From: an uncultured Eubacteriales bacterium
Lineage (GTDB): Bacteria > Bacillota > Clostridia > Oscillospirales > Oscillospiraceae
Assembly: GCA_900316205.1 (NCBI GenBank)
Contig: ONBX01000008.1
Span: forward strand, 1 to 56,867
Length of the DNA stretch: 56,867 nt
Direction of reading: 5' to 3'
This document shows positions 1,965-56,306 of the stretch, one piece after another. Within the stretch, counting starts at the first letter, position 1, and the number at the start of each line of letters is the position of its first letter. The translations under genes were made by a program, and so were the position numbers. The notes below the pieces were generated by a model, which was given only the letters and a program-made list of their open reading frames with translations, was not told the DNA's origin and did not search any database.

Positions 1965-4900
1965 TCAGTCCAGAACCGCGGTGGGATCCCCAACCAGATA
2001 TTTGCGCAGGCGGACCAGATCGTCGGCGTTCACCAGGCCGTCTCCGGTCAGATCTGTGTTGACGCTGTTGATCTCAACATTGACCTGCGCCAGGTATTTG
2101 CGCAGCCGAATCAGGTCCAGGATGTCCACCGTTCCGTCCCCGTTCACGTCACCGGGGAGATACGGCACCCAGGTGATATTCCCGCCGTAGTTCTGGCGAA
2201 CTTCTTCCGTCCAACTTGGGTCGCTCGCCGGATAGTACGCCGTGACTTTAACACCTGAGAATGCGTCCTCACGAATGCTCGGCGCAGAGCCCTTAAACAG
2301 GATCTCCTTCAAGCTGATGCAGTTGCTGAACGCAAAGGATCCGATACGGGTCACATCTGTCGGGATCGTCACAGCTGTCAGGCTGCCGCAGCCGGAAAAA
2401 GCATAGCTGCCGACGCTTTTGACACCTGGCTGGATCGTGACTGTCTGGATCTTGCTCCGACACGGGAACCAGGGAACGGCAGAAGCATTCGTCCAATCTG
2501 TCATGGCGCCAGCGCCGGAGATCGTCAGCGAACCCTGCTCCTCAAGCGTCCAGGTCAGATTCTCCCCACATGTTCCGGAGCTTTGCTTCATTGTCCAAAC
2601 AGCATAGAGTTCCATATCATGATCCGTCTCAATCGTTTCACCGGGAAGAAGATCCGCCTCCTGTGCATCCGGAGCCTCAGCCCAGCCGAGGAACTCGCAA
2701 TTCTCTCTGGTTGGAATCTCTTCCGTGATTGTGAGCGTCTCTCCTGAGGCAGCCGCCTGCATGTTCGGCGCGCCGCTGCCGCCGTTGGCGTTATAGGAGA
2801 TCACATAACCGTTAATCTCTCCCGAACAGGCAATCCAGGTCAGCGTCCCGCCGTAGTTCTGGCGCGTATTCTCCGTCCAGGAGGTCTCCACACCCGAATA
2901 AAAGGCGAAGGCCTTTACGCCGCTGAAAGTGTTATCATTGATTTTCGGCGCAGAGCCAGAGAAAACAATTTTTCTAAGCGCGTTGTCAGAACTGAACGCG
3001 TATGCATCGATTTCTGACATACTCGAAGGGATCGTCACGCTGGACAGACTTCTGCAGTTGGAGAATGTAAAACTCCCTATTTCCGTCACGCCTTCCGGGA
3101 TCGTCACACTCATCAGAGCATAGCAATTCCAAAAGGCAGAGTTTCCAATGTTGGTAACCGAATCCGGGATCGTCACACATTTCAAAGTGCTGCAACTGTA
3201 AAAAGCATATCCTCCGATACTGGTCACTCCATCTGGAAGCACCACCTTATTCAGGCCACTGCATCCGGAAAAAGCACCGCCTCCAATAATGGTCACCCCG
3301 TCCGGTACGATCAGGTCACCGCTCAGACTCGCGGGGCAGCAAACGACCGTCGTCATTGCCTTGTCATATAAGATGCCATCCAGGACCTGATAGGCTGGAT
3401 TTCCCTCCTTCACCAGAATCGTCTCCAGTTTCCCGCAATTGGCAAAAGCAGAGTCGCCTATGCTTGTCACGCCTTCCGGAATCGTCACACTCTCCAGAAC
3501 ACTGCACCAGGAGAACGCATTGTTTCCGATTTTTGTCACGCTCTCTGGGATTGTTACACGCGTAAGGCTTCGACAGGAGGAAAACGCCCTGCTTCCGATA
3601 CTCGTCACGCCCTCATCGATCAGAACCTCCTGTACCGAGCTCCGCAAATTGTCCCATGGCACATCCCAAGACCAGTCCATTCCCTTCATTGCGCCTCTCC
3701 CGGAAATATACAGCATGCCATCCGTGTACAGGACCCAGTTCAGGCCGTCTCCAAAGCATCCTCCCTCGCTGATCGTCCTTTCCGGATACGCGAGAGTGAA
3801 TTCCACCTCGATGAGCAGAGTCTCCTCCTGCCCTACGGTATAGGTCTCCATATCAATCACGATACCGTTCACACGGACTGTATCCACGCGATATCCGGGA
3901 TCGGGATAAATCTGTAAGGTGTCCAGCTTTTCGCCTCGCAGCACAAAACCTGCAGCAGTTCCATTCTCCTTCGCTACTATCTCACTGGGAACGATGGATG
4001 CGTTATAATACCATGTCGCATTCAACAGATCGTCGTTAGATCCTTTAATCGACATACCGTCACGCTCGGTCTCAGAGCCGGAATAGGCGACGCATCGCAG
4101 TTCAGCACAACCGTAGAACGCGCTATAGTCGATCATTGTCAGCGTGCTGGGAATCGCCACGCGCATCAGATTGCTGCATCCATAGAATGCGGAGTTCCCT
4201 ACGCTTGTCACGCCCGGTTCTATTCTCACAGACACGATGGAGGAACTAAGGTCGTTCCAGGGAGCTCCGGAGCTGCTGCTCCAGTTCCACATTGCGCCAG
4301 TACCATGAATGAAAAGCGATTCATCCTCATAAAAAGCCCAGAAGACATGATCGCCACAGGCGCCGGCTGCGATAAACGTTTCGCCTGGACGTATCTCCTT
4401 AAAAGCGATTCGGATTTGGAGGAAGGTTTCCTCTCCCACGATATAGCTTCCAAGGTTCTCCTCTTTGCCGTTGACAAAGAGGACCATGCAATATCCATCC
4501 TCCGCAGTAATCTGCAGTCGCAGTCTCTCACCTCTTACCGCAGTTTTCAGTTCGGCAGTACCATGTTCCCCAACCTCCTCCAGCGAGCTCGGCACGATAT
4601 CTGCGTAGGTCTTCTCGAAATGCCAAAAAGCGGCGGTCAAAGGTTCGTTGTTGCCTCTGACTTCAATCAAAGCCTTTTCTTCTTCTGTCCCATGATAAAA
4701 GACCTCTTCCAACTCTGAGCAGGCCTGGAAAGCGTTATATCCGACTGCCATTACTCCTCTTCCGAGTTCCAGCATCCGGATCTGGGCGCAGTAATCACAC
4801 CACGGGACGTCGGAACTGCTGCTCCAATCTCCGATCTCGCCGTTACCGTAGATATAAAGGATTCCGTCTTCATACAGGCTCCAGAAAACCTGATCCCCGC

Positions 4901-7900
4901 AAGAACCTCCAGCAACAGGCTGCTCCGGTCTATTCTCAGCAAAATCGATTCGGATCGCAAGGTTCTCTTCCTCTCCCACCGTATATGTTTGGAGTTCTTC
5001 CTTTTTCCCGTTGACATACAGGACAGGGGTATACCCCAAATCGGGGGCAAGCGTCAGGCGCAGTTTTTCTCCCCTGACACAAAGCTTAAGGGAAGCACTG
5101 CCATGTTCTCCCACTTCCAGTGTGCCGGGGACAATATCAGCAAGCGTTTTTTCCAAATGCCAGCAAGCAAAAGTAAGCGGTGAATTGTCGCCGTTAATCC
5201 CAATCTCAGATTTTTGCTCTGCTGATCCCTCGTAAAAGATATCATCCAGCGCATCACAGCCGAGAAAGGCTCCATATCCAACTTCCTTAATGCTGGTAGG
5301 CATCACTAAGATTTGCAACGTGTTGGAATTGGCAAATGCGCTTCTCGGAATCCCTGAACTCCATCCGAATTCTATATTACACCCGCTGCCGATCGGCCCT
5401 GCGGTTTTGAGTTCCGGGCAATTACGAAAAGCTTCGCTTCCGATATTCTTGACGCTGTCCGGGATCGTCACGCTCGTCAGGCTGCTGCAGCCGTAGAACG
5501 CATAATCGCATACATCTGTTACGCCATTCTCGATCTCCACTTTCTGAATCTCTTGACGGTACTGATGCCATGGGACCGACGTTTCATAGACATAGGAATT
5601 TGTAGTCCCGTTTCCATAGAGATAAAGCAATCCTTTATCATACAGTACCCAATACATGTTCTTGCCAAAAGAGCCGTTTGCCATGATCGTCCTGTCAGGG
5701 CGAATCGGTTTGAAGATCACCTGAACTAGCAGACTCTCCACATTTCTGACATAGTAATGCTGAGCGTCAACCGTTTCCCCATTAACGAGAACTTTTTCCT
5801 GCACATATCCACTATCCGGCACAACCGTCAGCCGCAATTGCTCTCCACGCACAGCCAACTGGGCGGATGCGCTGCCGCCCTCTTCCGCTATCACGGTACA
5901 AGGAACTATATCCTCAAAAGTCTTATTATAATGCCATGTTCCCAGTGAAGGACGAGAGCCGTTCCAAGTTGACGCGATATCGATTTCATAGTGCTGTGCC
6001 TCGCTTCCGGCGTAGATGGTGTCTGTAATGCTTCCCGGAAGAGCTCTGACGTCGATCTTTGTCACGCTTGTTGGGAGCACGAGGCACGCCAAGCTGCTGC
6101 ACCCTTCAAATGCATAGACCGAAATATTCGTCACGCCTTCGTCAATCTTCAGTACTCGAGCCTTATCTCCGATACGATACCAAGGCGAAAGCCCCGCATA
6201 ATAGTTATAGTCCGGCATCTCCCCGCTGCCGCAGACGCACAACAGTCCATCATCGCTCAACGTCCAAATACGCCCTTCGCCCCATGTTCCCTGATCAGCA
6301 TAGTCCCATGTATATTCCCAATCAGCCGTGGTAAGGAACTGATTTCCACTGTTAAACGAAATCGATGCTCTCTGATCCGCTGTTCCGACATAGAAGACCG
6401 TTGTTAAACGAGGGCAGGATTGAAAAGCATAGCTTCCAACGTTTGACATGCTCAAGGGCAGTCTGACATTTGCAAGGCAGGAGCAATTGGAGAACATATA
6501 TGAGCCGACCTTTATGCAGCCATCCTGAAATCGCGCACTTTTAAGGTTTACGCATTCAGAAAATGCATAATATCCAATCTCGCTGACGTTTGGGGGAATC
6601 ATCACATCCTGAAGGCAGGCACAGCCCGAAAACGCATACTGTCCGATGCTCGTTAAACTGGCAGGGAGTATTACATACCACATCTCAGCTTTGGTAAAAG
6701 CATACTGTTCAATCGTAGTTAAGCTCGATGGTAATACTATCGTACCACTTGATTTGTACCCCGAGAACGCATAAGGCCTGATCCTTGTCACACCGTCAGG
6801 GACAGTTAGCCTTCCCGAGACAGCGTTGTTGCGGACATACAGATTCTTCGCATAAAACATTGGATTTGACGTCTCAGTTTTGAACGAGATTTCGCACCAG
6901 GCAGGTAAACTCGAAATATATAAGTATTCCAGTTTTTTGCATCCATTGAATGCATAAGCACCTATTGTCGACACAGTAGATGGCATCCTAACCGTCTTTA
7001 AAGACGAACATAACTGGAACGCGCCAAATCCAATATCGGTCAAGCCTTCCTCAATGGTGATATCATACAATTCAGTACACTTTTCAAATGCCCCTGAACC
7101 GATACTTTTAACGCTGGAAGGGATTGTAAGGCTGTATAACGCTGTGCAATTCTCAAACGCAGAATCATTGATAGTTTCAACACTTTTGAGTGAAATTGAC
7201 TTAAGACTGCTGCAACCGGAAAAGGAATATGATCCGATCAAGCTAACGGAATCCGGGAGCGACACACTTGTTAATGAAGTGCACGAGGAGAACGCATAAT
7301 TTCCGATACTCTCAACACCGGATTTGATCACGACTGACTTGATGGCTCCACTGTAATTGGCCCAAGGGACGCTTGACTCACTGGAATAAACCGACATATA
7401 GCCGGTGCCCTTGATGGTCATTTGCCAATTGTCATCCAGCGTCCATGTCATGTTCTCACCGCAGGTACCGCCCGCCTTGATATCCTGCGGTTCGCTCTCC
7501 TCCGAAGGGAGCCCGATCGCATCAATTTCTTCTTCCGGATCATTGATCTGCCCATCTTCTTCCATGCTTTCAAGCCAGTCCTGTGCTTCTGTAATGACAA
7601 ACTCATCGCTCAAGACGCTCTCTTCCCCTGCGCAGGCGTGAAGGCAATAGGTTCCGGGCATCTGCATTTCCCAGGATTGGGCATCAACGGGTATCTCTTC
7701 AACCGGAATCAATTGTGTATCGGTATCGTTCTCCGTCTTTACCATCAATAGTTCCAGACTATCGGGAGTGCAGTTCAACTTCCAATAGACAACGCAGTTC
7801 CCTTTATGAGAAAGCGTTCCACCTTCAGGCTGCAAGGTGAACTCCAAGGCTGATTCCACAGCGGAAATCACGCCTTCTTCGTCCTCCCCGCGCTCGGTAA

Positions 7901-46316: not shown

Positions 46317-47219
46317 TCAGAAGAGATCCAGAGAGCTCGTCAGATAGAGCTCCTCCCGGACCTTGAGTTGGTATTCCGGCTTTGTCGTATAGTAAAGCAG
46401 AAACTCCAGGAGCATGGCGCTGCCAAGGCTGCGCCCCTCGATCTTGAACTGGGAAAAGCCATTGGGAAGATAGCGCTCCCGAATATCCCGGATCCCGATG
46501 AAGCCGGGATTTTCCATGGCGTCGGAGAAGCGATAGCCCCGGCTCGCACTCGGGGAAGCGCAGACGTGCTCCGGGCAGTCCTCCCCCAGGTTCCGGCGGC
46601 TCACATTCTCATAGCAGGCCTTCCGTTCGGGGCAGTCGAACCAGCAGCACTCGTTGCAGAGGAACTCAAGCTTCTCCTTTTTCTCCTCAGGCAGGCTCTC
46701 CAGCCGGTCAAAGGCTTTGTTCAGCCGGAAATCCGGCACCACAAAACGAAATTCCGGGCGTTCCAGTTCTTTCTCCAGCCGGAAAAAGTCCCGCAGCACC
46801 TTGGTGGTGGAGGAGACGAAATAAAAGCCGGGATAGCGCTTTCGCAGGCAGCCCAGCAGCAGATCGGAGGCCAGGATCACGCCGTTTTGTACCGCCCCGC
46901 TTTTCTCGAACAGGGCGCAGAGGGCGTTGCACTTTCTGTCCTCCAGATGCTCCGGCCGCAGAAGGGAGTTCGAGAAGGTAAGCCGGGCGGAGATCCCGTA
47001 CTCCGCCGTGAGCGCAGCCGCGTCCTCCGGCCGGTCCTCCCCAAAGCCGACCCTGCCGCCGCCCCAAAGGCAGTCTGCCGGGGCGCCGTAGAGCGAGCCG
47101 ATCTCGCACCAGTCATAAAACCAGTCACGGTGCTCCCGATAGAGGGGCAGGAAGACGCGGTAAAAGTCGATAAATTCAAAGAGCCCCGGGAGATGATAGA
47201 TCGCTTTTCGCTGCTCCAT
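46317..47219 (-). CDS. Cysteine-rich protein, possibly U32-like
   Basis: 300 aa, soluble. It contains a CNECCWFDCPERKACYENVSR cysteine cluster and a C-terminal FIGIRDIRERYLPNGFSQFKIEGRSLGSAMLLEF. The spacing suggests a bound metal or iron-sulfur cluster, and the tail recalls the peptidase-U32 TIM barrels, but I do not recognise it with certainty. The ATG at 47219 overlaps the preceding stop as TGATG. Translationally coupled to the monooxygenase-domain gene. Confidence 0.55.
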   Translation of the reverse strand: MEQRKAIYHLPGLFEFIDFYRVFLPLYREHRDWFYDWCEIGSLYGAPADCLWGGGRVGFGEDRPEDAAALTAEYGISARLTFSNSLLRPEHLEDRKCNALCALFEKSGAVQNGVILASDLLLGCLRKRYPGFYFVSSTTKVLRDFFRLEKELERPEFRFVVPDFRLNKAFDRLESLPEEKKEKLEFLCNECCWFDCPERKACYENVSRRNLGEDCPEHVCASPSASRGYRFSDAMENPGFIGIRDIRERYLPNGFSQFKIEGRSLGSAMLLEFLLYYTTKPEYQLKVREELYLTSSLDLF

Positions 47220-47503
47220 CACCAGTTCACTTTTTCGATCTCCACCCGCTCACAGAAGCGGGCTTTGATCTCCTGCAATTTTCGGAAGCGCTCAGTCTGG
47301 CAGTGGGCCTGCTGGAAAGAGGGATTGGTCCAGCTCTCCACCAGGAGGAGGTCGTCCTCCTTTTCCGCCGCGAAGTAGTAATCATAGCGGAGGTTCCCGT
47401 TTTCCGCCCGGGAGCCGGCTTTTACGCCCAAATCGCAGAGCGCCTGATAGAAGGCGGCTCTCTGCCCCTTTTTGCAATGATATGTCACATACCAGGTCAG
47501 CAT
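47219..47503 (-). CDS. Antibiotic-biosynthesis-monooxygenase (ABM) domain protein
   Basis: 94 aa dimeric ferredoxin-like fold of the ABM/YgiN kind (MLTWYVTYHCKKGQRAAFYQALCDL ... YDYYFAAEKEDDLLLVESW). Members act as quinol or heme-type monooxygenases; the role here is unknown. GGGGAGGG precedes ATG. It is the first gene of the minus-strand run and overlaps the next by one base. Confidence 0.8.
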   Translation of the reverse strand: MLTWYVTYHCKKGQRAAFYQALCDLGVKAGSRAENGNLRYDYYFAAEKEDDLLLVESWTNPSFQQAHCQTERFRKLQEIKARFCERVEIEKVNW

Positions 47504-47558
47504 GTTTCCCTCCCCTTTCTCGCCTTCCCTTCCGCTGAGAGCAGGAAGCATTTTTTAT

Positions 47559-47587
47559 ACAATACCACGAACAGGGCGAAAAAACAA
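47559..47587 (-). promoter_or_regulatory. Possible promoter for the ABM/U32-like/PDF run
   Basis: -35 TTGTTT (47587-47582), 17-base spacer, -10 TATTGT (47564-47559), 56 bases before the first start. Confidence 0.45.
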
Positions 47588-47598
47588 GCAAACGAAAA

Positions 47599-47629
47599 AC
47601 GGAGTCTGCTCACAGCGAACAGACTCCGT
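47599..47629. terminator. Terminator of the acyl-lipid/MMPL operon
   Basis: 10-bp stem ACGGAGTCTG/CAGACTCCGT with a T5 tail on the minus strand. It begins 18 bases after the MMPL stop and isolates it from the next unit. Confidence 0.85.
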
Positions 47630-47646
47630 CTTTTCATGTATACACG

Positions 47647-50600
47647 TCAGTCTTCGGCAGTCCGTCTCTTCCGAAACAGGAACTCCGAAAACAGCGCGGC
47701 ACAGATGGTCAGGATCAATGCTGCCAGGGGCAGCAGGCCGCCCAGCATCACGCAGCGGCGGCGCCAGATCACAAGAGCCATCAGGCTCAGCAGACCGGCG
47801 GCGGCGCTGAGGATCGCCGCGGGAAGCGGCTTCTTTTTCAGGGCGATCGCGAGAACCAGGGAAACCACAGCGCAGATCAGCGACAGCGCCATCAGGATCG
47901 ACACAAAGCGAGCGGAACGGTTTTCGTTTTCCGCCTGCTGCAGGAGGCCGCGGTAATAGGACTCCGCAGCATCCAGCGTCTCCAGGGCGCCTGCATTTCT
48001 GGAGAGCGTGTCCTTGAGTCCCGGCTCGGATTTCAGGAGCCGCAGCCCCTGCTTCAGCCGTTCCATCTCATCGCTGAGCTGGTCCAGGTCGGAAAGGCTG
48101 TTGTTCAAGGCTGCCAGGTTCTCCTCCAGCATCTCGCGGCCTTCCTCCAGCTTCTGGCGGCCGGCCTCCAGCTCGTTGCCGCCCTCCTCCAGGAGTTCAT
48201 GGGCGTCGCTCAGCTGTTGTCTGCCCTCTGCGATCTGGCTTCCGCCCTCGGCCAGCTGGGCATAGCCCTCGTCCAGGGCGGCTTTGCCCTCGGCCAGCTT
48301 GCGTTCGCCTTCGGCCAGCTGCTGCTCGGCCTCCGCGGCTCTGGCATAGCCCTCATCCAGCGCGGCCTTGCCCTCGGCCAGCTGCTGTTCGGCAGCGGCA
48401 GCCTGGGCATAGCCCTCGTCCAGCGCGGCCTTGCCTTCGGCCAGCTGCTGTTCGGCAGCGGCCAGCTGGGCTCTGGCCTCCTGGTACTGCGCCGCAAGGC
48501 CGCCCAGGCTCATCCCGCCAAGCTCAGCCTCCAGCGAAGCCCGCACGCCGGCCAGCTCCGCCGCGATGATCAGGGCGGAAGCGATGTCGCCCTGCTCTAT
48601 GGCCGCGTCATACTGTTCCTGCAGCGCGTCGGCGCGGTCCTGCAGGGCGCTGATCACCTCGTAGAGCGGTTCCACCGCGTCCAGCGCGGCTTTGGCAGAG
48701 TTATACTGGGCAAGCCCCTCGTCATACTGGGCCTGGCCTTCGGCCAGCTGGCGCTGGCCTTCCTCGTAAGCGGCCATGCCCGCGTCATACTGGGCCTGGC
48801 CTTCGGCCAGCTGGCGCTGACCTTCCTCGTAGGCGGCAAGGCCTTCGTTATAAGCGGCAAGGCCCGCGTCATACTGGGCCTGCGCCTCGGCAAGCCTTGC
48901 CGCGCCCTCGTCATACTGGGCCTGGGCATCCGCCAGCTGGGCTGCGCCGGCATTGTACTGGGCAAGGCCGCTGTTGTACAGCTCCTCGTTTTCCGCCAGC
49001 ACCTGCTCGCCCTCAGCAAGCTGCGCGGAGCCGACCTCGTCGGTGACCAGCTGCTGGGCAAAATCGTACTTCAGGCTGTCCAGGTCATTGCCTTCCCCTT
49101 CCAGCTTCTCCGCAAGGGTACGCAGCTGGCTGGTCTGCTCCAGCAGACCGCCCACCCGCTCCCGGGAGTCCTTCAGCAGCGAAGCGCCCCGGTGCAGGCC
49201 GTGGGGAATGGTGGCTGCGGCAAACAGCATCGCCGCGGCCAGGAGCCCGCCGGCAATGCGCAGGCGATTTTTGGCCAGAAAGCCCAGGAAACGGGACTTT
49301 TCGGTGTGCAGCGTGGTGGCGGACACGAAGGAATCTCCCAGCAGGAGCACCTGCGGCAGGGCAAAGAGGATCAGCACGAGGGAGATGCTGGTGCCGGTAC
49401 CAACATAGTAGCCCATGCCGGCGATGATGCACTGGGACACCTGGAAGCCGATCAGCAGGCCCGCGCAGACCATCATGAGGCCCGAGGTGATGATGGTGGG
49501 GAAGGCCAGATTCAATGTCTCGATAATGGCGTCCCTCTTGTCCATCGTCTCCCGGAATTCCCGGTAGCGGGAAGAGACCACGATGGCATAGTCGATATTC
49601 GCGCCCATCTGGATGGCGCTGACGATCAGATAGCAGAGGAAGAATACATAATCGCCCTTCAGAGCGGCAATGGCAAAGTTCACCCAGATGCTGCCCTGGA
49701 TCACCAGGATCAGCAGCAGGGGCATGCCGAAGGACTTGAAGGTGAAGAACAGGATCAGCATCACCAGCACCAGGCTCATGAGACCCACCACCGCGTTATC
49801 CTCGGCGAAGGAGTCCCGGAAGCCCAGGGCGCTCACCGAATCGCCGGTGAGGACCACGCCGCTGTCATAATACTGGGCGGCGATATGGTGGATCTGGTCC
49901 AGGAAGCGGAAGGTCTCCTCCGATTGGACCGGCAGATTCAGGTTCAGCACCAGGCGGCTGTAATTGTCGCTCATCAGCTGACCGCGGACCATGCTGAGCT
50001 GATCGAAAAGCTGCTTGATGAGCGCCACCTGGTCCTCTTCCAGCTCCACATCCCCGGCCTCTACCCGCTCATGCAGGAAGAGGAACAGATCCAGAAGCGA
50101 GGCCTTGTAGCCGGCCAGATTCTCACGGACAGCCCGATGGTCGCCCTGTTCGGCGGCATAATAGGCATACACCGCCTTGGCGCTGATCTCATCGATCCCG
50201 GCAATCCTTTGAAATTCGGCGTAATCCACCTCGTCGGTGATGGTGTGGCCCTCGATGGCCTCGATATCGGCCAGGCCCATGGCGGACTTGACCTCCGGGC
50301 GGAGTTTCAGCTCCTCCAGCAGCTCCCGCTCGGCGGCGTAGTCCCCGGAGGGGACCATCACGGCCACCACATTGCTGTGGCCGAAGGTCTCCCGGACCTC
50401 CTCCTTGGAGCGCTCATACTCGGTCTGGCGGAAGGCGGGGACCATGTCCACGCTGTAGGCATAGTGCACCCGGCTGAAGGTCAGATAGGCGCCCACCACC
50501 AGCAGTACCAGCAGGATGGGCATCACGAAGCGGGACTTGTAGGCAAATTTGCCGATAGGCGTGATCTTGGGGACAAAGCGGCGGTGTTTGGTCTTGTCCA

Positions 50601-51558
50601 TGGCCTTGCCGAAGGCCATCAGCAGCGCCGGCATGAAGAAGAACACCGTGAGCAGGCTGCAGAGGATGGCCTTGATCAGTGTCATGCCCATATCCACGCC
50701 CAGGCGGAACTTCATGAAGGTCATGGCCGTGAGCCCGGCGATGGTGGTCAGGCTGCTGGCAAAGATCTCCGGAATGGAGGCGGCCAGGGCCTTCACCACG
50801 GCGTCATGGATGTCCAGGCGCTCGTGCTCTTCCTTGTAGCGGTTGCAGAAGATGATGGCATAGTCCACCGACAGGGCCAGCTGCAGCACAATGGCCACGG
50901 AGTTGGATACGAAGGAGATGGTCCCCATCAAAAAGTGGGTGCCGATGTTGATGACGGCCGCCACCATAAAGGTCAGGATCATCACCGGGATCTCGGCATA
51001 GGTGCTGGAGGTAAAGACCAGCACGGCCAGGACCACGATGACCACGAAGATCAGCACGGTCAGCATCTGCTCCGCCACCAGATCGGAGAGGCTGAAGCCT
51101 ACCTCCGTGTCGATGGTGACGTCCCTGTCTCCCAGCAGCGTCTTCACCTGCTCCAGAGCCTGCTCGCTGCGTTCAGAGGCTGCCACATCCGCAAAGGTCA
51201 GGTCGAAGAGCGCGGTATCGTCCTTATAGTGGGAAGCGCTCTCGTCAAACTGGACCAGGACCACATCCTGTACCTTGGAAAGCTCCCCGGACAGGGCTTT
51301 GGCATCCTCGAGGCTGATGTTCTTCACCATGACCTTGGCGGTGCCGTAGGTGATGAACTCCTCCTCCATGATGGCCAGGCCCTGCTTGGCTTCGGCGTCC
51401 TCCGGCAGATAGGCGGTGATATCCTCTTCCACCTTGATCCATCTCAAGGAGAACACCGAGAACACGAGCATCGCCGCGAAAAGCAGCAGGATCCATCTCC
51501 TTCTGTCCACCACGAAGCCCGCAAGCCGTGTCATAAAGCTCTTGTTTTCCTTGTCCAT
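47647..51558 (-). CDS. MMPL/RND-family transporter with long coiled-coil domain
   Basis: 1303-aa inner membrane transporter. Two RND halves are visible: residues about 1-360 and 360-760, each with a first membrane helix, an outer loop domain and a five-helix bundle. The bundles include the conserved intramembrane charged motifs VDYAIIFCNRYKEEHER and IDYAIVVSSRYREFRE. Then comes a hydrophilic coiled coil of roughly residues 840-1150, built of 21-residue repeats (AEQQLAEGKAALDEGYAQAAA-type), and finally four membrane helices. Coils of this kind also occur in YhgE/Pip-like proteins and may span the cell wall. AAAGGAG lies before ATG. Last gene of the ligase-carrier-acyltransferase operon, so lipid export is the best inference, as for mycobacterial MmpL. 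Confidence 0.9.
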   Translation of the reverse strand: MDKENKSFMTRLAGFVVDRRRWILLLFAAMLVFSVFSLRWIKVEEDITAYLPEDAEAKQGLAIMEEEFITYGTAKVMVKNISLEDAKALSGELSKVQDVVLVQFDESASHYKDDTALFDLTFADVAASERSEQALEQVKTLLGDRDVTIDTEVGFSLSDLVAEQMLTVLIFVVIVVLAVLVFTSSTYAEIPVMILTFMVAAVINIGTHFLMGTISFVSNSVAIVLQLALSVDYAIIFCNRYKEEHERLDIHDAVVKALAASIPEIFASSLTTIAGLTAMTFMKFRLGVDMGMTLIKAILCSLLTVFFFMPALLMAFGKAMDKTKHRRFVPKITPIGKFAYKSRFVMPILLVLLVVGAYLTFSRVHYAYSVDMVPAFRQTEYERSKEEVRETFGHSNVVAVMVPSGDYAAERELLEELKLRPEVKSAMGLADIEAIEGHTITDEVDYAEFQRIAGIDEISAKAVYAYYAAEQGDHRAVRENLAGYKASLLDLFLFLHERVEAGDVELEEDQVALIKQLFDQLSMVRGQLMSDNYSRLVLNLNLPVQSEETFRFLDQIHHIAAQYYDSGVVLTGDSVSALGFRDSFAEDNAVVGLMSLVLVMLILFFTFKSFGMPLLLILVIQGSIWVNFAIAALKGDYVFFLCYLIVSAIQMGANIDYAIVVSSRYREFRETMDKRDAIIETLNLAFPTIITSGLMMVCAGLLIGFQVSQCIIAGMGYYVGTGTSISLVLILFALPQVLLLGDSFVSATTLHTEKSRFLGFLAKNRLRIAGGLLAAAMLFAAATIPHGLHRGASLLKDSRERVGGLLEQTSQLRTLAEKLEGEGNDLDSLKYDFAQQLVTDEVGSAQLAEGEQVLAENEELYNSGLAQYNAGAAQLADAQAQYDEGAARLAEAQAQYDAGLAAYNEGLAAYEEGQRQLAEGQAQYDAGMAAYEEGQRQLAEGQAQYDEGLAQYNSAKAALDAVEPLYEVISALQDRADALQEQYDAAIEQGDIASALIIAAELAGVRASLEAELGGMSLGGLAAQYQEARAQLAAAEQQLAEGKAALDEGYAQAAAAEQQLAEGKAALDEGYARAAEAEQQLAEGERKLAEGKAALDEGYAQLAEGGSQIAEGRQQLSDAHELLEEGGNELEAGRQKLEEGREMLEENLAALNNSLSDLDQLSDEMERLKQGLRLLKSEPGLKDTLSRNAGALETLDAAESYYRGLLQQAENENRSARFVSILMALSLICAVVSLVLAIALKKKPLPAAILSAAAGLLSLMALVIWRRRCVMLGGLLPLAALILTICAALFSEFLFRKRRTAED
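48230..49000 (-). repeat. In-gene tandem repeats coding a heptad coiled coil
   Basis: Degenerate 63-base units (21 aa, three heptads) repeat with CTGGGCCTGGCCTTCGGCCA-like and CCTCGTCCAGGGCGGC-like cores. Sub-periods of 7 aa (AEGQAQYDAG-type) lie within. Unit number may vary by recombination. Confidence 0.8.
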
Positions 51559-51586
51559 GGCAAGGTTTCTCCTTTCCGGAAAAGAA

Positions 51587-52948
51587 TTACAGGCTGCGCC
51601 GGATCAGCTCCTCCAGGCTCTGCTCCGGCTCGGCCACGCCCAGCTCCAGGAAACGAAGCATAAAGGCATGAAGCTGCTCGCAGCTCTCCTTTTTGGTGTA
51701 GCCAAGCGCATAGCAGTAGATCCCGTACAGATCTCCTGTGTCATCCTGGGGCTGAACAAGCATATAGAGCGGGATCGGGACAAATCCGTTGTCCAGCATC
51801 TTGGCAACGAATCTCAGTTCGCTGCTGCCCATTTTGAAGAACGGCTGGTAGGTCAGCCAGACAGAATCATAGGTGCAGTCGTCGGGTACCTCAAACCTCG
51901 GGAACATATCCGCTTTCAGGTTGAAATACTCATAGTGCGCGTGACGGTATACCTCATTCTCGGCGGCAGCCACGCGGTTCAGGGCCTCGCCAAAAGGCAG
52001 ATCAGACGGGAACGCCATCCGAACCGGCGCGGTTTTGGCAATGCTGAAGCCCGCAGACTTCTGATAGAGCGTAGAGCGCATCGCCATGGGCGTGACCACC
52101 ATCACATCGTCGCTCTTGTTCACATGGGCCAAGTAGCTGCGCAGGGCCAGCATGTAATAGACCTGGGGAGAGAGCTTTCGCTCCGCGGCCGAGGCATTCA
52201 CCTGGTCCACCAGTTCTTTGGGGATGCGCATGCGCAGCAGTTCGGTGAACATCTGCTCAAAGGACTGCTTGCGTCCATAGCGCTTGCCCTCCACATATTC
52301 GGGGCCGCCCAGGCCGTTCACGGAACAAAACATGGGTTCGGTCTCATACTGGGCGCGCCACCACTGTCCGTCTCTCTCCTCTTTTTTGGAACCGAAGTAG
52401 GCGTTCTCCTCCTCCAGAAGCTTCCAGGGCAGAGGGGCTTCCGGGGGCAGCTGTTCCCCACGGGAAAGGGCGGAATAGACCGCATCCACATAACGCACGG
52501 TGTTCATCATGGAAAAGGCGTCCATAATGAAATGGTGCACGACCAGGTGCAGAACATGCTTTCCGCCGGGCATCCGGATCAGACGGAAGCGGTAAAGCTG
52601 CACGTCTCTCTGATTGTTGGGAAAGTTCTCCTTCTGCCACTGGAGCTTCAGGCTTTCCAGCTCTTCCTCGGTGCCCTGGCTCAGATCGATGATCTCAACC
52701 GGGTCGGGAGCCTCCTCGCTGCAGTACTGCATGCAGCTGCCATCGTCCATGTCATGGAGGCGGACCCGACAATAGGGCAGACGTTCTCCGCTGATGCGGA
52801 TCGCATCCAGGAGCCGCTCTTCGGAGATATCGCTCACAAAGTCGATTTCGGTGAAGAGGTACAGCAGATTCGGGAAGGGGAAAAGCCCCGCCAGCATCAC
52901 AAGACCTTCCTGCTCCTTGGAAAGGGGGTAGTACTTTCTTTCTTCCAT
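51587..52948 (-). CDS. Condensation-domain acyltransferase (Pap/AATase-like)
   Basis: 453-aa CoA- or carrier-dependent acyltransferase of the condensation superfamily. The active-site HHxxxD motif is VHHFIMDAF, with His138-His139 and Asp143. The domain has the two-lobed layout (DAIRISGERLPYCRVRL in the first lobe, PVRMAFPSDLPFGEALNRVA in the second) and no adenylation or carrier domain. Gly of the usual HHxxxDG is Ala, which is tolerated in Pap/AATase-type enzymes. AAGG precedes the ATG at 52948. It is 4 bases after the ACP stop, so coupling to carrier-bound acyl groups is the natural reading. Confidence 0.85.
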   Translation of the reverse strand: MEERKYYPLSKEQEGLVMLAGLFPFPNLLYLFTEIDFVSDISEERLLDAIRISGERLPYCRVRLHDMDDGSCMQYCSEEAPDPVEIIDLSQGTEEELESLKLQWQKENFPNNQRDVQLYRFRLIRMPGGKHVLHLVVHHFIMDAFSMMNTVRYVDAVYSALSRGEQLPPEAPLPWKLLEEENAYFGSKKEERDGQWWRAQYETEPMFCSVNGLGGPEYVEGKRYGRKQSFEQMFTELLRMRIPKELVDQVNASAAERKLSPQVYYMLALRSYLAHVNKSDDVMVVTPMAMRSTLYQKSAGFSIAKTAPVRMAFPSDLPFGEALNRVAAAENEVYRHAHYEYFNLKADMFPRFEVPDDCTYDSVWLTYQPFFKMGSSELRFVAKMLDNGFVPIPLYMLVQPQDDTGDLYGIYCYALGYTKKESCEQLHAFMLRFLELGVAEPEQSLEELIRRSL

Positions 52949-52952
52949 ATAC

Positions 52953-53177
52953 TCAGACCTTCCCCTCCAGGAACTTGACCAGATCCCGGATGGTGAAGAG
53001 ATTGCGCAGCTCCGGCGTCTCGATGGTGATGTCAAATTCATCCTCCAGATCGCCCACCATGGTCATGATGTCCAGAGAATTCATAGCCAGGTCGTCGATG
53101 AAGCGGGTCTCGGGCGTGAGACCGCCTTCCGGCTCCTCCACATAGTTCAAAAGGATCTCACAGACTTTTTCGTACAT
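52953..53177 (-). CDS. Stand-alone acyl carrier protein
   Basis: 74-aa carrier protein. Four-helix fold with the phosphopantetheine site Ser34 in DLAMNSLDIMTM, where the usual D-S-L-D is N-S-L-D (Asn33). The C-terminal half is FTIRDLVKFLEGKV. AGGAG precedes ATG. It lies between the acyl ligase (42 bases upstream) and the acyltransferase (4 bases downstream). Its dedicated position suggests a separate pathway from the housekeeping fatty-acid carrier. A phosphopantetheinyl transferase elsewhere must load it. Confidence 0.9.
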   Translation of the reverse strand: MYEKVCEILLNYVEEPEGGLTPETRFIDDLAMNSLDIMTMVGDLEDEFDITIETPELRNLFTIRDLVKFLEGKV

Positions 53178-53219
53178 GATGCTTTCTCCTGTTCTAAAGA
53201 TTTTTATGATTTCAAAAGT

Positions 53220-54860
53220 TCAGCGCTTCCCGGCGGGCTGCGCAAGCAGATAGCGCTTGATCTTCATGGTGGTGGTCTTTTCAAAGGGGGCGGAGCGCAG
53301 CTTCACTTTCTGGATGTTCTTGCAGGAGGGCATGCTGCTGTTGAACAGGCGGACATCCTCCTGCAGACGTTCCGGAGCGTCCGGATACTCCATCGTATCC
53401 AGATAGAATTCACCGGTGACGGTCTTGTCTTCCTCGTACACAGCAACTTCCTTCACATATTCCAGCCTGCGCAGCTTCTCCTCCAGCTCCTCCGGGGAGA
53501 CGTTCTTGCCGTTTGCCAGGATGATCAGGTTCTTTTTCCGGCCGGTGATGAAGAGGAATCCATCCTTGTCTATGTAGCCGTAGTCGCCGGTCTTGAACCA
53601 CTCGCCGTCAAAAGCCTCGGCGGTGGCCTCGGGATCCTTGTAGTAGCCCAGCATCACGTTGGTCCCGGCCACGTAGATCTCGCCCACGCCTTCCTCGTCG
53701 GGATCTGCGATCTTCACCCGGTTGCAGGGCAGAGGCTTGCCCACGCTGCCGAAGCGGAAATCGTTGTTGCGGTTCACCGCCACCACCGGGGAGCACTCGG
53801 TGATGCCGTAGCCGTTGATGACCGTGATGCCGAAATCATACAGGCCCTTCTGAAGCTTGGGGTCCAGCGCGGCGCCGCCGCAGATGATGGTCTCCAGCTT
53901 GCCGCCGAAATGTTCATGGATCCGGCGTAACAGGCGCTTGCGCAGATCGATGCCGCAGATCATCAATGCCTGGCTCAGGGTGATGGTATGGCGCAGCTTT
54001 TTGTCCATGCCCTGCTTCTTTGCGTTGACCCAAATGCCGTAATAGAGCATTTCCACCATCAGCGGCACCGCGGAGATGTTCTGGGGTTTGTTCTGGTTCA
54101 GATCCTTGACGATGCGCTTCATGCTGCCGCTGATATGGGCGTCCACATTGTAAAGGAAAGCGGCGAACATGGCAGAGGCCCAGGAGAAGGTATGGTTCAT
54201 GGGCAGGAAGATCTGGGTATTGCGGGCGGTGACGCACTGGCAGGTGGCCACCACGTCGCTGGCCAGATTTCCGTGGGAGAGCATGACGCCCTTGCTCTTG
54301 CCGGAGGTGCCGGAGGTGTAGACGATGCAGGCCAGGGTATCCGGCGTCACGGTGGTCTCGGCAAAGGAGCGGTCTCCGTCCTGCATGAGATATTCCCCTT
54401 CGGTCACATAGGCATCAAACTCATTGATCGTGAAATAGAGCATATGGGAGAGATCATCCAGGCTGTGGAAATAATCCGCCACATCGGTATATTTCTTTGA
54501 GAAGATGATGGCCTGGCAGCCGCAGTGCCGGATCAGTTCCGCCAGATCCTCCCGGGGCAGCTCCTTGTCCAGGGGGACCACCACGTTGCCGGTGCTGACG
54601 ATGGCAAAATAGCTCAGGCACCACTCGGTAGAGTTCTCGCCCAGCAGGGCGATCTTCGCGTCCCGCAGCTCCTGATTCAGCAGGAAGGTGCCCAGGGCCT
54701 CCACCAGATGATAGGCGGACTTGAAACTGATGGGCTGGGTGTTCCGCTTGCCGCCGTAAAAAATCGTGTTGTTGCCGCCCTGATCCCGCCCGTAGGCGAT
54801 CAGGTCCCGCAAGGTGGGAACTTCGGCGATCTCATAGTACGGATACGGTGCGTTTTTCAT
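53220..54860 (-). CDS. AMP-forming acyl ligase (FadD/FAAL-like)
   Basis: 546-aa ANL-superfamily enzyme that adenylates a carboxylic acid, probably a long-chain fatty acid, for transfer to the carrier. P-loop YTSGTSGKSKG (181-191), substrate helix NHTFSWASAMFAAFLYNV, adenine motif YGITECSP, the ribose Asp in WFKTGDYGYIDKDGF, and the C-terminal hinge GRKKNLIILANGKNVSP, with catalytic Lys near TTTMKIKRY. The ATG at 54860 (GGAGG about 13 bases upstream) is preferred over one at 54905 that lacks a site. First gene after a strong promoter. Whether the product is acyl-CoA or acyl-ACP is undecided, but the next gene is a carrier. Confidence 0.9.
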   Translation of the reverse strand: MKNAPYPYYEIAEVPTLRDLIAYGRDQGGNNTIFYGGKRNTQPISFKSAYHLVEALGTFLLNQELRDAKIALLGENSTEWCLSYFAIVSTGNVVVPLDKELPREDLAELIRHCGCQAIIFSKKYTDVADYFHSLDDLSHMLYFTINEFDAYVTEGEYLMQDGDRSFAETTVTPDTLACIVYTSGTSGKSKGVMLSHGNLASDVVATCQCVTARNTQIFLPMNHTFSWASAMFAAFLYNVDAHISGSMKRIVKDLNQNKPQNISAVPLMVEMLYYGIWVNAKKQGMDKKLRHTITLSQALMICGIDLRKRLLRRIHEHFGGKLETIICGGAALDPKLQKGLYDFGITVINGYGITECSPVVAVNRNNDFRFGSVGKPLPCNRVKIADPDEEGVGEIYVAGTNVMLGYYKDPEATAEAFDGEWFKTGDYGYIDKDGFLFITGRKKNLIILANGKNVSPEELEEKLRRLEYVKEVAVYEEDKTVTGEFYLDTMEYPDAPERLQEDVRLFNSSMPSCKNIQKVKLRSAPFEKTTTMKIKRYLLAQPAGKR

Positions 54861-54934
54861 GGAATCGCAAAAACCTCCGGTGGCGTTCGGGCATATTTCT
54901 GCCATATTACGCCATTTTATTTTATGACCAGAAT

Positions 54935-54963
54935 ATTATATGAATCAACTTTCGTGAAGTCAA
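54935..54963 (-). promoter_or_regulatory. Strong promoter of the acyl-lipid/MMPL operon
   Basis: Minus-strand -35 TTGACT (54963-54958), exact 17-base spacer, -10 TATAAT (54940-54935). It leaves a leader of about 70 bases before the ligase. Confidence 0.85.
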
Positions 54964-55032
54964 GAGAACCGGGCTTTTGTCAAAAATTTAATTATTCATA
55001 TCTGCCCTTCAGCCCACGTTTTGCCACAAAAA

Positions 55033-55078
55033 ACAAACGAAGAGGACTGTGAAAAAGCGCACAGTCCTCTTCGTTTGT
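55033..55078 (-). terminator. Terminator of the MBL/RNA phosphodiesterase unit
   Basis: A perfect 19-bp stem (55033-55051 with 55060-55078) with a T6 tail on the minus strand, 18 bases past the MBL stop. Confidence 0.9.
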
Positions 55079-55095
55079 CAGTCGGGTGGGAACAC

Positions 55096-55785
55096 TCACG
55101 GATCGCACAGGAAAACGGCAGCACCCACGTCGTAGGCCCGGATGCTGTTTCCGTGTACCTCCATCGGCTGGCCCTTCACGCTTCCCTCCAGCACCCGGAT
55201 GGCGCCGTCGTGCAGCTTGTCGATCAGCTCCGGGGAAACCGGAATGGACCCATGAGAGGGCCATATTGCATCGAAGCGGCCCCGCCAGGTCTGGAGATGC
55301 TCCAGGCTTTGGATATACTTCTCCATATTCCGGAAGCGGCCGAACATGAAGATCCGCCCGTCCTGGATGGGGTCGCCGCTGATGAGGACCCGTCGGGATC
55401 GGTCCAGCAGGGCGATGCTCCCTGGCGTGTGGCCGGGCAGATGGATGACCTCCAGCGTCCTTTCGCCAAGGTCGATCAGGTCTCCCTCCCGCACGGGCAG
55501 GATCTTGCCGCCCCTCTCCCCGCGGCGGAAGTTTTCCTCCTCGTCCGGATGCATATAAAAGGCATCAAACTGGGCGTTGCTGCCCACATGGTCCATGTCT
55601 CCATGGGTGTTCAGCAGGCCGATGGGCAGATCCGTGAGACTTCCGGCAATGTCCCGGGCATTGTGAACGCTCCTGCCGGAGTCCACCAGCAGGGCCCGCT
55701 CCGTCCCTGCGAGCAGGAAGAAACGCACGCCGCTGTCCTCAATGCGCCAGGAATCGCTGCCGATCTGAATGATTTCATAGTCCAT
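55096..55785 (-). CDS. MBL-fold hydrolase, glyoxalase II-like
   Basis: 229 aa. Metal motif HGDMDH in place of the usual HxHxDH (first His kept, second replaced by Asp), then GHTPGSIALLD with the third His, SGDPIQDGR with the bridging Asp, and WPSHGS with the last His. The core fold of glyoxalase II and quorum-lactonase-like enzymes is clear; the altered HxDxDH may change metal choice. AAGGAG lies before ATG. It starts 2 bases after the ThpR stop. Confidence 0.85.
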   Translation of the reverse strand: MDYEIIQIGSDSWRIEDSGVRFFLLAGTERALLVDSGRSVHNARDIAGSLTDLPIGLLNTHGDMDHVGSNAQFDAFYMHPDEEENFRRGERGGKILPVREGDLIDLGERTLEVIHLPGHTPGSIALLDRSRRVLISGDPIQDGRIFMFGRFRNMEKYIQSLEHLQTWRGRFDAIWPSHGSIPVSPELIDKLHDGAIRVLEGSVKGQPMEVHGNSIRAYDVGAAVFLCDP

Positions 55786-55787
55786 GT

Positions 55788-56306
55788 TTACATCTCCTTG
55801 TCCGGGGTCTCCGCCTCAATGCGGCCCAGCTCCGTATAGATCATCCCCCTCTTTCCCCTGTCGGAGCGCATGAGGGAGAGCGCCTCCACCTGCATGGCGG
55901 CCGGCTCGATCCCGATCCACGCAGCATCTCTCGTAGCCTTTCGCAGCAGGGTGATGTGGGGAGAAAAACGTTTGCGGTCATAGGGGATATCGTTCTCGGC
56001 AAGCGCTCTGCGCACACGGCGCGCAACAGCGTTCAGCGCCGCGGAATCCCGCAGGCCAGCCCACCAGAGATCGCCGAAGCGTCCGATCCCCTCCAGGGTC
56101 AGGGCGAATGGCGTGAAGGTGACGGTGCTCAGGGCGTCCAGTACCGGCTCCGCCTCCGGAAAGTCCCCGATGAAGGCCAGGGTCAGGTGCAGGTTTTCCT
56201 CCAGGCTGTAATTCCCCCGCAGGCCCCGGTCGTACATGGCGTTCTGGGTCTCGATGAGGGCCTCTTTCATTTCGTTTGACAGAAGGATCGCGATAAACAG
56301 TCTCAT
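55788..56306 (-). CDS. thpR: RNA 2',3'-cyclic phosphodiesterase (ThpR/LigT family)
   Basis: 172 aa. H-x-T-x motifs HLTLAFIG and PHITLLRK, family length, and the N-terminal MRLFIAILLSNEMKEAL typical of ThpR/LigT. Opens 2',3'-cyclic RNA ends. It is followed after 2 bases by the MBL hydrolase and shares its terminator. A second, more distant 2H protein lies at 27951. Confidence 0.88.
   Translation of the reverse strand: MRLFIAILLSNEMKEALIETQNAMYDRGLRGNYSLEENLHLTLAFIGDFPEAEPVLDALSTVTFTPFALTLEGIGRFGDLWWAGLRDSAALNAVARRVRRALAENDIPYDRKRFSPHITLLRKATRDAAWIGIEPAAMQVEALSLMRSDRGKRGMIYTELGRIEAETPDKEM

Follow-up and report, generated by a model that had tools for sequence, protein, structure and literature searches.

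Variation of a condensation gene between close relatives within a conserved acyl ligase, acyl carrier and MMPL transporter unit of an uncultured Eubacteriales bacterium

The contig ONBX01000008.1 of an uncultured Eubacteriales bacterium (assembly GCA_900316205.1, genome 96.4% complete) was analysed in a stretch of 56,867 nt, here called the window. It carries a unit of four genes for an acyl ligase, an acyl carrier protein (ACP), a free-standing condensation enzyme (CD) and an MMPL transporter. New here is the observation that the CD varies between relatives of the same genus while the ligase, the ACP and, where it can be read, the MMPL protein persist. At the level of sequence, the CD gene occurs in this genus in different types, is missing or survives as a relic. 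This difference between otherwise near-identical relatives was absent from the initial annotation of the window. We regard the unit, with moderate confidence, as a divergent cassette of the fatty-acid-amide (FAA) type, equipped with an exporter of its own and an exchangeable gene for the condensing enzyme. All evidence on exchange and on the cassettes comes from assemblies.

Three pairs of relatives (genomes designated by G numbers) were chosen from an identity table ahead of tree building. Between the window and G608, the ligases are 98%, the ACPs 99% and the MMPL proteins 97% identical, and the CDs 37%. The pair G674/G648 gave 89% for the ligase, 78% for the ACP, 41% for the CD and 77% for MMPL; in the pair G654/G675 the values were 90%, 92% and 41% for ligase, ACP and CD, with MMPL not comparable. 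All three pairs are starred in the ligase tree. For the CDs, the tree rejects each of these pairings (p = 1e-36, 1.4e-7 and 6.3e-10 in the approximately unbiased (AU) test) and places the CD of G608 with those of G637 and G675, apart from that of the window. DNA homology between the window and G608 halts at the ACP stop codon and restarts at the start ATG of the MMPL gene. DNA of the CD region is approximately 50-60% identical between flanks of 91-100%, with sharp edges; identity over the first half of the ligase gene is 97-100%, and over the MMPL gene 93-98%. In G674/G648, homology ends 12 bases before the end of the ACP frame and returns approximately 60-70 bases inside the MMPL frame.

Orthology of the window and G608 extends beyond the unit: 12 kb of the window, located about 14 kb off the cassette, are found on the same G608 contig in the same order at 90-94% identity. 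When the 42 open reading frames (ORFs) on the minus strand of the window were compared with this contig, 34 were collinear at 68-99% identity and the CD stood at 39%; four were without match, one matched partially at the contig end (44%) and two had moved (57 and 68%). A third genome, G630, is 98-100% identical in DNA to G608 within 900 bases either side of the CD. In the remainder of the ligase and MMPL genes this value is 83-97%, and around the cassette approximately 77-86% (61% in one badly aligned bin). Recombination in the flanks that brought in the CD would predict identity between G608 and G630 to be highest beside the CD and lower outward, as is seen. G608 looks like a mosaic in which a G630-like tract surrounds a CD that resembles neither, which is how an introgressed piece would look. 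The literature searched, which did not cover most subscription journals, yielded no account of an exchange of CDs in cassettes of this kind.

As a separate observation, most ORFs at 8-19 kb and 22.6-28 kb of the window have no match on the G630 cassette contig and most are matched on the G608 contig; judged by these matches, the two stretches are variable regions.

Apart from replacement, loss and relics of the CD gene were found. In G616 (92% complete) the ligase, ACP and MMPL frames are open, the gap between the ACP and MMPL genes is 55 bases, and no condensation domain was matched in the genome. G675 carries, between a GtrA-like gene and the MMPL gene, the remnant of a CD, its last approximately 97 residues, with 90% identity to the G654 CD. 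Reciprocally, the DNA after the ACP gene of G654 contains pieces matching the CD, GH3 and GtrA genes of G675 in the same order (111, 53 and 68 bases at 92, 87 and 87% identity). Judged by these matches, each of the two genomes keeps a relic of the CD type found in the other. The GH3-family genes (PF03321) were confirmed by Pfam in G637 and G675, that is in two of the nine cassettes of the genus. One lies between ligase and ACP and the other behind the CD together with the GtrA-like gene (L092:9428-11158; L093:3247-5073). GH3-family proteins form amides in plants.

Two explanations would account for the CD differences without exchange. Assembly chimeras of co-resident strains are a very unlikely source: draft and metagenome assemblies with near-identical flanks do favour misjoining, and the relic of G654 stands at a contig end, but two pairs have their boundaries at gene ends and the third pair carries relics. 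Moreover, a chimera could itself arise only if both CDs occurred next to the same flanks, and the CD of G608 is represented by six members on three contigs from three sources (their flanking context was not seen). That the CDs are orthologues which diverged very fast under selection appears extremely improbable. An acceptor site could evolve quickly, yet the sharp-edged drop in DNA identity between well-conserved flanks, the grouping of the G608 CD with G637 and G675 rather than with the window, and the relics in G675 and G654 all speak against such divergence.

By sequence, OaaC of the FAA pathway (12KH; PMC13142362) is the closest solved relative of the CD, with a match over CD residues 4-449 at E = 2.3e-23. 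In the FAA set of that source, the second histidine and the aspartate of the condensation motif are conserved, and the aspartate is followed by serine in 42% and alanine in 36% of cases (PMC13142362). The motif of the window CD, HHFIMDA, agrees with this pattern. Across eight CDs of the genus the second histidine and the aspartate are invariant, the first histidine position holds H, Q or E, and A or G follows the aspartate. PF00668 was the sole Pfam report on the CD at E<=1e-3 and has a single match in the own genome; the unit holds one ACP and one CD and lacks an acceptor carrier. An AlphaFold2 model of the CD (mean predicted local distance difference test (pLDDT) 91.9) has the fold of condensation domains, with CDA-C1, LgrA and the RzmA starter domain as nearest structures.

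A tree was built from 48 CDs, comprising 17 of the window type, 17 other free-standing enzymes, OaaC and 13 domains of nonribosomal peptide synthetases (NRPS). Eleven of the latter were taken from open frames of more than 900 aa, and two, L051 (460 aa) and L053 (497 aa), were assigned by their nearness to L050 and L059. The window-type CDs, the other free-standing CDs and OaaC group at 100/100, apart from 12 of the 13 NRPS rows. Best match and tree together point to a distant kinship of the CD with OaaC.

A pattern scan of a species-genome collection returned 17 loci, 14 in Clostridia and three in actinobacterial NRPS genes. The ligase, ACP and CD co-occur above chance, because the set stands together in all 14 Clostridia loci found with the CD; the genes are adjacent and in the same order, except that in L020 a GH3 gene separates ligase and ACP. 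MMPL is present in five of these 14. Among the nine loci lacking it, two contigs stop at the CD, three extend 1-3 kb and four at least 4.8 kb. All ten OaaC-type loci from other genera contain CD, ACP and ligase, and none contains MMPL, which refutes the candidate idea that MMPL marks all FAA clusters. Since MMPL is restricted to 5/14 and 0/10 loci, respectively, it appears, among the loci examined, to belong to the version of this genus and not to the whole kind. The co-occurrence in other Clostridia that the initial annotation had called for was thus borne out for the carrier and not generally for the transporter. MFS transporter genes adjoin the ligase gene in two distant FAA-type loci without MMPL (L028:6688-7914, L029:6578-7978). 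PMC6712304, followed as a lead for MMPL combined with a condensation domain, deals with other clusters in the passages concerned.

With a cut-off of E<=1e-150, a close ligase was found in nine of 102 genomes from the genus, one of them the own genome, and in one of 400 genomes drawn from the family, again the own genome. Ligase matches with internal stops in G667 and G680 fall below this cut-off; the G667 region was searched with the others. Ligase and ACP are kept in the nine loci of the genus, and MMPL in all eight that are readable that far (in G675 the contig end truncates it, and the G654 contig ends ahead of its position). Compared with solved structures, the ligase matches coenzyme A (CoA) ligases and NRPS adenylation domains. 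An assignment to the FAAL type was dropped: the PDB entries matched at E<=1e-20 carry the names of CoA ligases, luciferase and NRPS adenylation domains. Ordinary acyl carriers are the matches of the ACP, which has a serine in the motif MNSLDI; one match to a phosphopantetheinyl transferase (PPTase) of the ACPS type was found in the own genome. The ACP of G630 (L016:6704-6874) is 17 residues shorter in its second half than those of the window and G608 and remains in frame; either a deletion or an assembly collapse may be the cause.

The solved structures nearest in sequence to the MMPL protein are MmpL5 and MmpL4. Foldseek likewise gave MmpL4 and MmpL5 as best matches, followed by HpnN and MmpL3, in agreement with an RND fold. 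In the AlphaFold2 model, which is of moderate confidence (mean pLDDT 74.7, predicted template modelling score (pTM) 0.55), the RND core is followed by long helices at residues 885-988 and 1018-1176, which may correspond to the coiled-coil stalk of the MmpL4/MmpL5-AcpM type. The part of the gene coding for them contains tandem repeats of 21, 42 and 63 bp (window 48121-48963). Complete MMPL proteins of the cassettes measure 1303-1379 aa, and open frames of paralogues are mostly below 900. MMPL matches occur in four proteins of the own genome, one of them an unlinked paralogue of 46% identity. As core homologues are present in 77 of 300 genomes of the family, and none of seven homologue loci inspected (14-16 kb read each, all ORFs searched) has a match to ligase, ACP or CD, the pump looks recruited. 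The same seven loci dispose of long-coil MMPL paralogues of other genera as candidates for further cassettes. A shorter paralogue of 819 aa is directly followed by a 935-aa GLUG-motif protein (L165:1120-3924 and 3924-6380; G000 C39), and genes of 842 and 843 aa follow MMPL in G659 and G109.

Two readings of the function differ from the FAA-type cassette. One takes the MMPL protein to be unrelated to the product, a common family transporter for the envelope or general efflux that has fallen behind the acyl genes. The frequency of its homologues in the family, the seven loci without acyl genes, the unlinked paralogue and the ten OaaC-type loci without MMPL all fit this reading. It nevertheless seems unlikely, as MMPL stands behind the acyl genes in every chassis locus readable that far, shares one transcription unit with them here, and at approximately 1300-1380 aa exceeds most paralogues in length. 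The other reading, which we consider decidedly improbable, assumes an ester or acyl-sugar as product, formed in the manner of mycobacterial Pap enzymes and exported by an MmpL-like pump. The condensation superfamily and the MMPL fold are common to both systems, and MmpL5 and MmpL4 are the nearest solved sequence relatives of the pump. Against it stand the relationship of the CD to OaaC, an amide former, the GH3-family genes in two of nine cassettes, and the lack of a polyketide synthase (PKS) among the eight proteins scanned around the unit. Because the CD is nearest to OaaC, whose pathway yields an amide from a free amine, an amide is a likelier product than an ester or an acyl-sugar. From the initial annotation, which had listed ester, acyl-amino acid and acyl-sugar, the minimal unit is retained and ester and acyl-sugar are disfavoured. 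Its mycobacterial analogy proved less apt with the CD nearest to OaaC; no support for it beyond the common superfamily was seen (Pap proteins were not compared directly).

Several observations weigh against an FAA-type cassette with an exchangeable CD. The relatives are draft genomes, mostly titled metagenome assemblies, and G608 is only 67% complete. The pair G654/G675 does not represent a simple replacement, as the CD gene of G654 lies between ligase and ACP, and the relic of G654 lies less than 400 bases from a contig end. By its gene content, G616 indicates that the CD is not strictly needed, which allows a role of their own for ligase, ACP and MMPL with the CD as an accessory. Regarding kinship to OaaC, the window-type CD clade is weakly supported (61/74), the FAA group also takes in one very long-branched NRPS row, and a group of FAA enzymes alone was not rejected (AU test, p = 0.335). 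12KH is absent among the fold matches listed for the CD, though this is uninformative on kinship. The ten OaaC-type loci share little identity with the unit (CD 22-26%, ligase 33-37%, ACP 31-45%), and in all ten the order is CD-ACP-ligase, opposite to ligase-ACP-CD.

In the FAA-type cassette preferred here, modelled on the chemistry of OaaC, the ligase would adenylate a fatty acid and load it onto holo-ACP, for which the genome has an ACPS-type PPTase. The CD would then move the acyl group from the ACP onto a small acceptor in free form, most probably an amine, without participation of an acceptor carrier, and an N-acyl amide would be released and exported by MMPL. Because the CD alone changes, the comparison suggests that the choice of acceptor lies with the CD, and the acyl side and export with the chassis. 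Replacement of the CD would change the acceptor and hence the product, since ligase and ACP presumably fix the acyl side; conserved neighbour genes may act as homology arms for the exchange. More tentatively, the cassettes might form a natural combinatorial platform. A population would trade CDs, sometimes with a GH3 amide synthetase, through a slot in a fixed chassis of ligase, ACP and exporter, and near-identical bacteria would export different N-acyl products made from the same acyl-ACP.

If this is true, one type of ACP must dock with CDs that are mostly 35-48% alike, and possibly also with MMPL. The window and G608 provide a matched enzyme pair (ACP 99%, CD 37%) for the question whether the CD alone sets the acceptor; sole control of the acceptor by the condensation enzyme is a disputed point in NRPS work. 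In addition, the unit offers a candidate exporter for FAA-type products. Bacterial amides of this type act on host G-protein-coupled receptors (PMC13142362).

The arrangement of the unit is given in Table 1. The minus strand carries all four ORFs within a single promoter-to-terminator unit, with intergenic gaps of 42 (ligase/ACP), 4 (ACP/CD) and 28 bases (CD/MMPL). A GGAGGT upstream and the starts of the relatives place the ligase start at 54860 (MKNAPYPYY), probably the true start, in place of 54905; the CD starts with the ATG at 52948 (corrected start). No PKS was found by a Pfam scan of the four unit genes and four neighbours (8 proteins, 46317-56306), and none of the four unit genes makes an acceptor. 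Thus the ORFs, Pfam matches and promoter- and terminator-like sites uphold the initial annotation with respect to a single four-gene unit with a 1303-aa MMPL protein, an intact condensation motif and a minimal set lacking both a PKS and an acceptor-making gene. The downstream genes for an ABM-domain protein and a 301-aa protein were excluded as members because a terminator-like hairpin intervenes and because, among the loci searched, only the two closest relatives have them. The 301-aa protein (window 46317-47222) is without Pfam match, and its gene lies beside the ABM-domain gene in these two relatives.

Table 1. Positions of the unit and its elements in the window.
Feature	Position	Strand	Basis
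Terminator-like hairpin separating the unit from the MBL-fold hydrolase gene upstream	55032..55079	-	Consensus match
Promoter-like TTGACT-17-TATAAT	54935..54963	-	11/12 matches; consensus match only
Acyl ligase (AMP-binding), 546 aa	53220..54860	-	PF00501, 5.9e-66; ORF open from 54905
Acyl carrier protein, 74 aa	52953..53177	-	PF00550, 2.4e-9
Segment without DNA homology to the orthologous G608 locus, ACP stop to MMPL start	51559..52952	-	
Free-standing condensation enzyme (CD), varying between relatives	51587..52948	-	PF00668, 5.3e-28
MMPL/RND transporter, 1303 aa	47647..51558	-	PF03176, 8.5e-40; Foldseek
MMPL residues 885-1176, predicted long helices	48031..48906	-	AlphaFold2 model
Terminator-like hairpin closing the unit	47595..47633	-	Consensus match

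Judged by sequence comparison, the nearest known systems are the NRPS-like FAA clusters of gut Clostridia rather than the mycobacterial Pap/MmpL systems. The founding paper on FAA clusters is Chang 2021, which PMC13142362 cites. The cluster OaaA-OaaACP-OaaC of Coprococcus eutactus forms an amide from a free amine, as described in the main text of PMC13142362, where neither MMPL nor any other transporter is mentioned. Like the FAA clusters, the unit encodes an acyl-adenylating enzyme, an ACP and a condensation enzyme as three free-standing proteins, with a related CD and without acceptor carrier. Unlike them, it has MMPL as a fourth gene, the opposite gene order, a separate CD branch and a CD that differs between near relatives. 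OaaC itself is a homodimer that is opened by holo- or acyl-ACP. From starter condensation domains (CDA-C1, 5du9; RzmA, 7c1l) the window CD differs in being free-standing and without acceptor carrier, with 16-17% identity.

The mycobacterial FadD/Pap/MmpL system serves lipid assembly and export. The unit shares with it a ligase, a carrier, acyl transfer and an MMPL pump with predicted long helices, but it has neither a PKS nor a fifth gene such as MmpS, and its CD is nearest to OaaC. Mycobacterial MmpL5 has been solved with the carrier AcpM, as stated in PMC12346298; similarly, the ACP gene of the window lies close to the pump gene. Finally, in multimodular NRPS genes the adenylation cores are reported to recombine most and the condensation domains mostly to stay, with exceptions named in PMC8097286. 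The cassettes resemble this process in diversifying by recombination beside conserved parts, and differ from it in that the whole condensation gene changes while the adenylating enzyme and the carrier stay.

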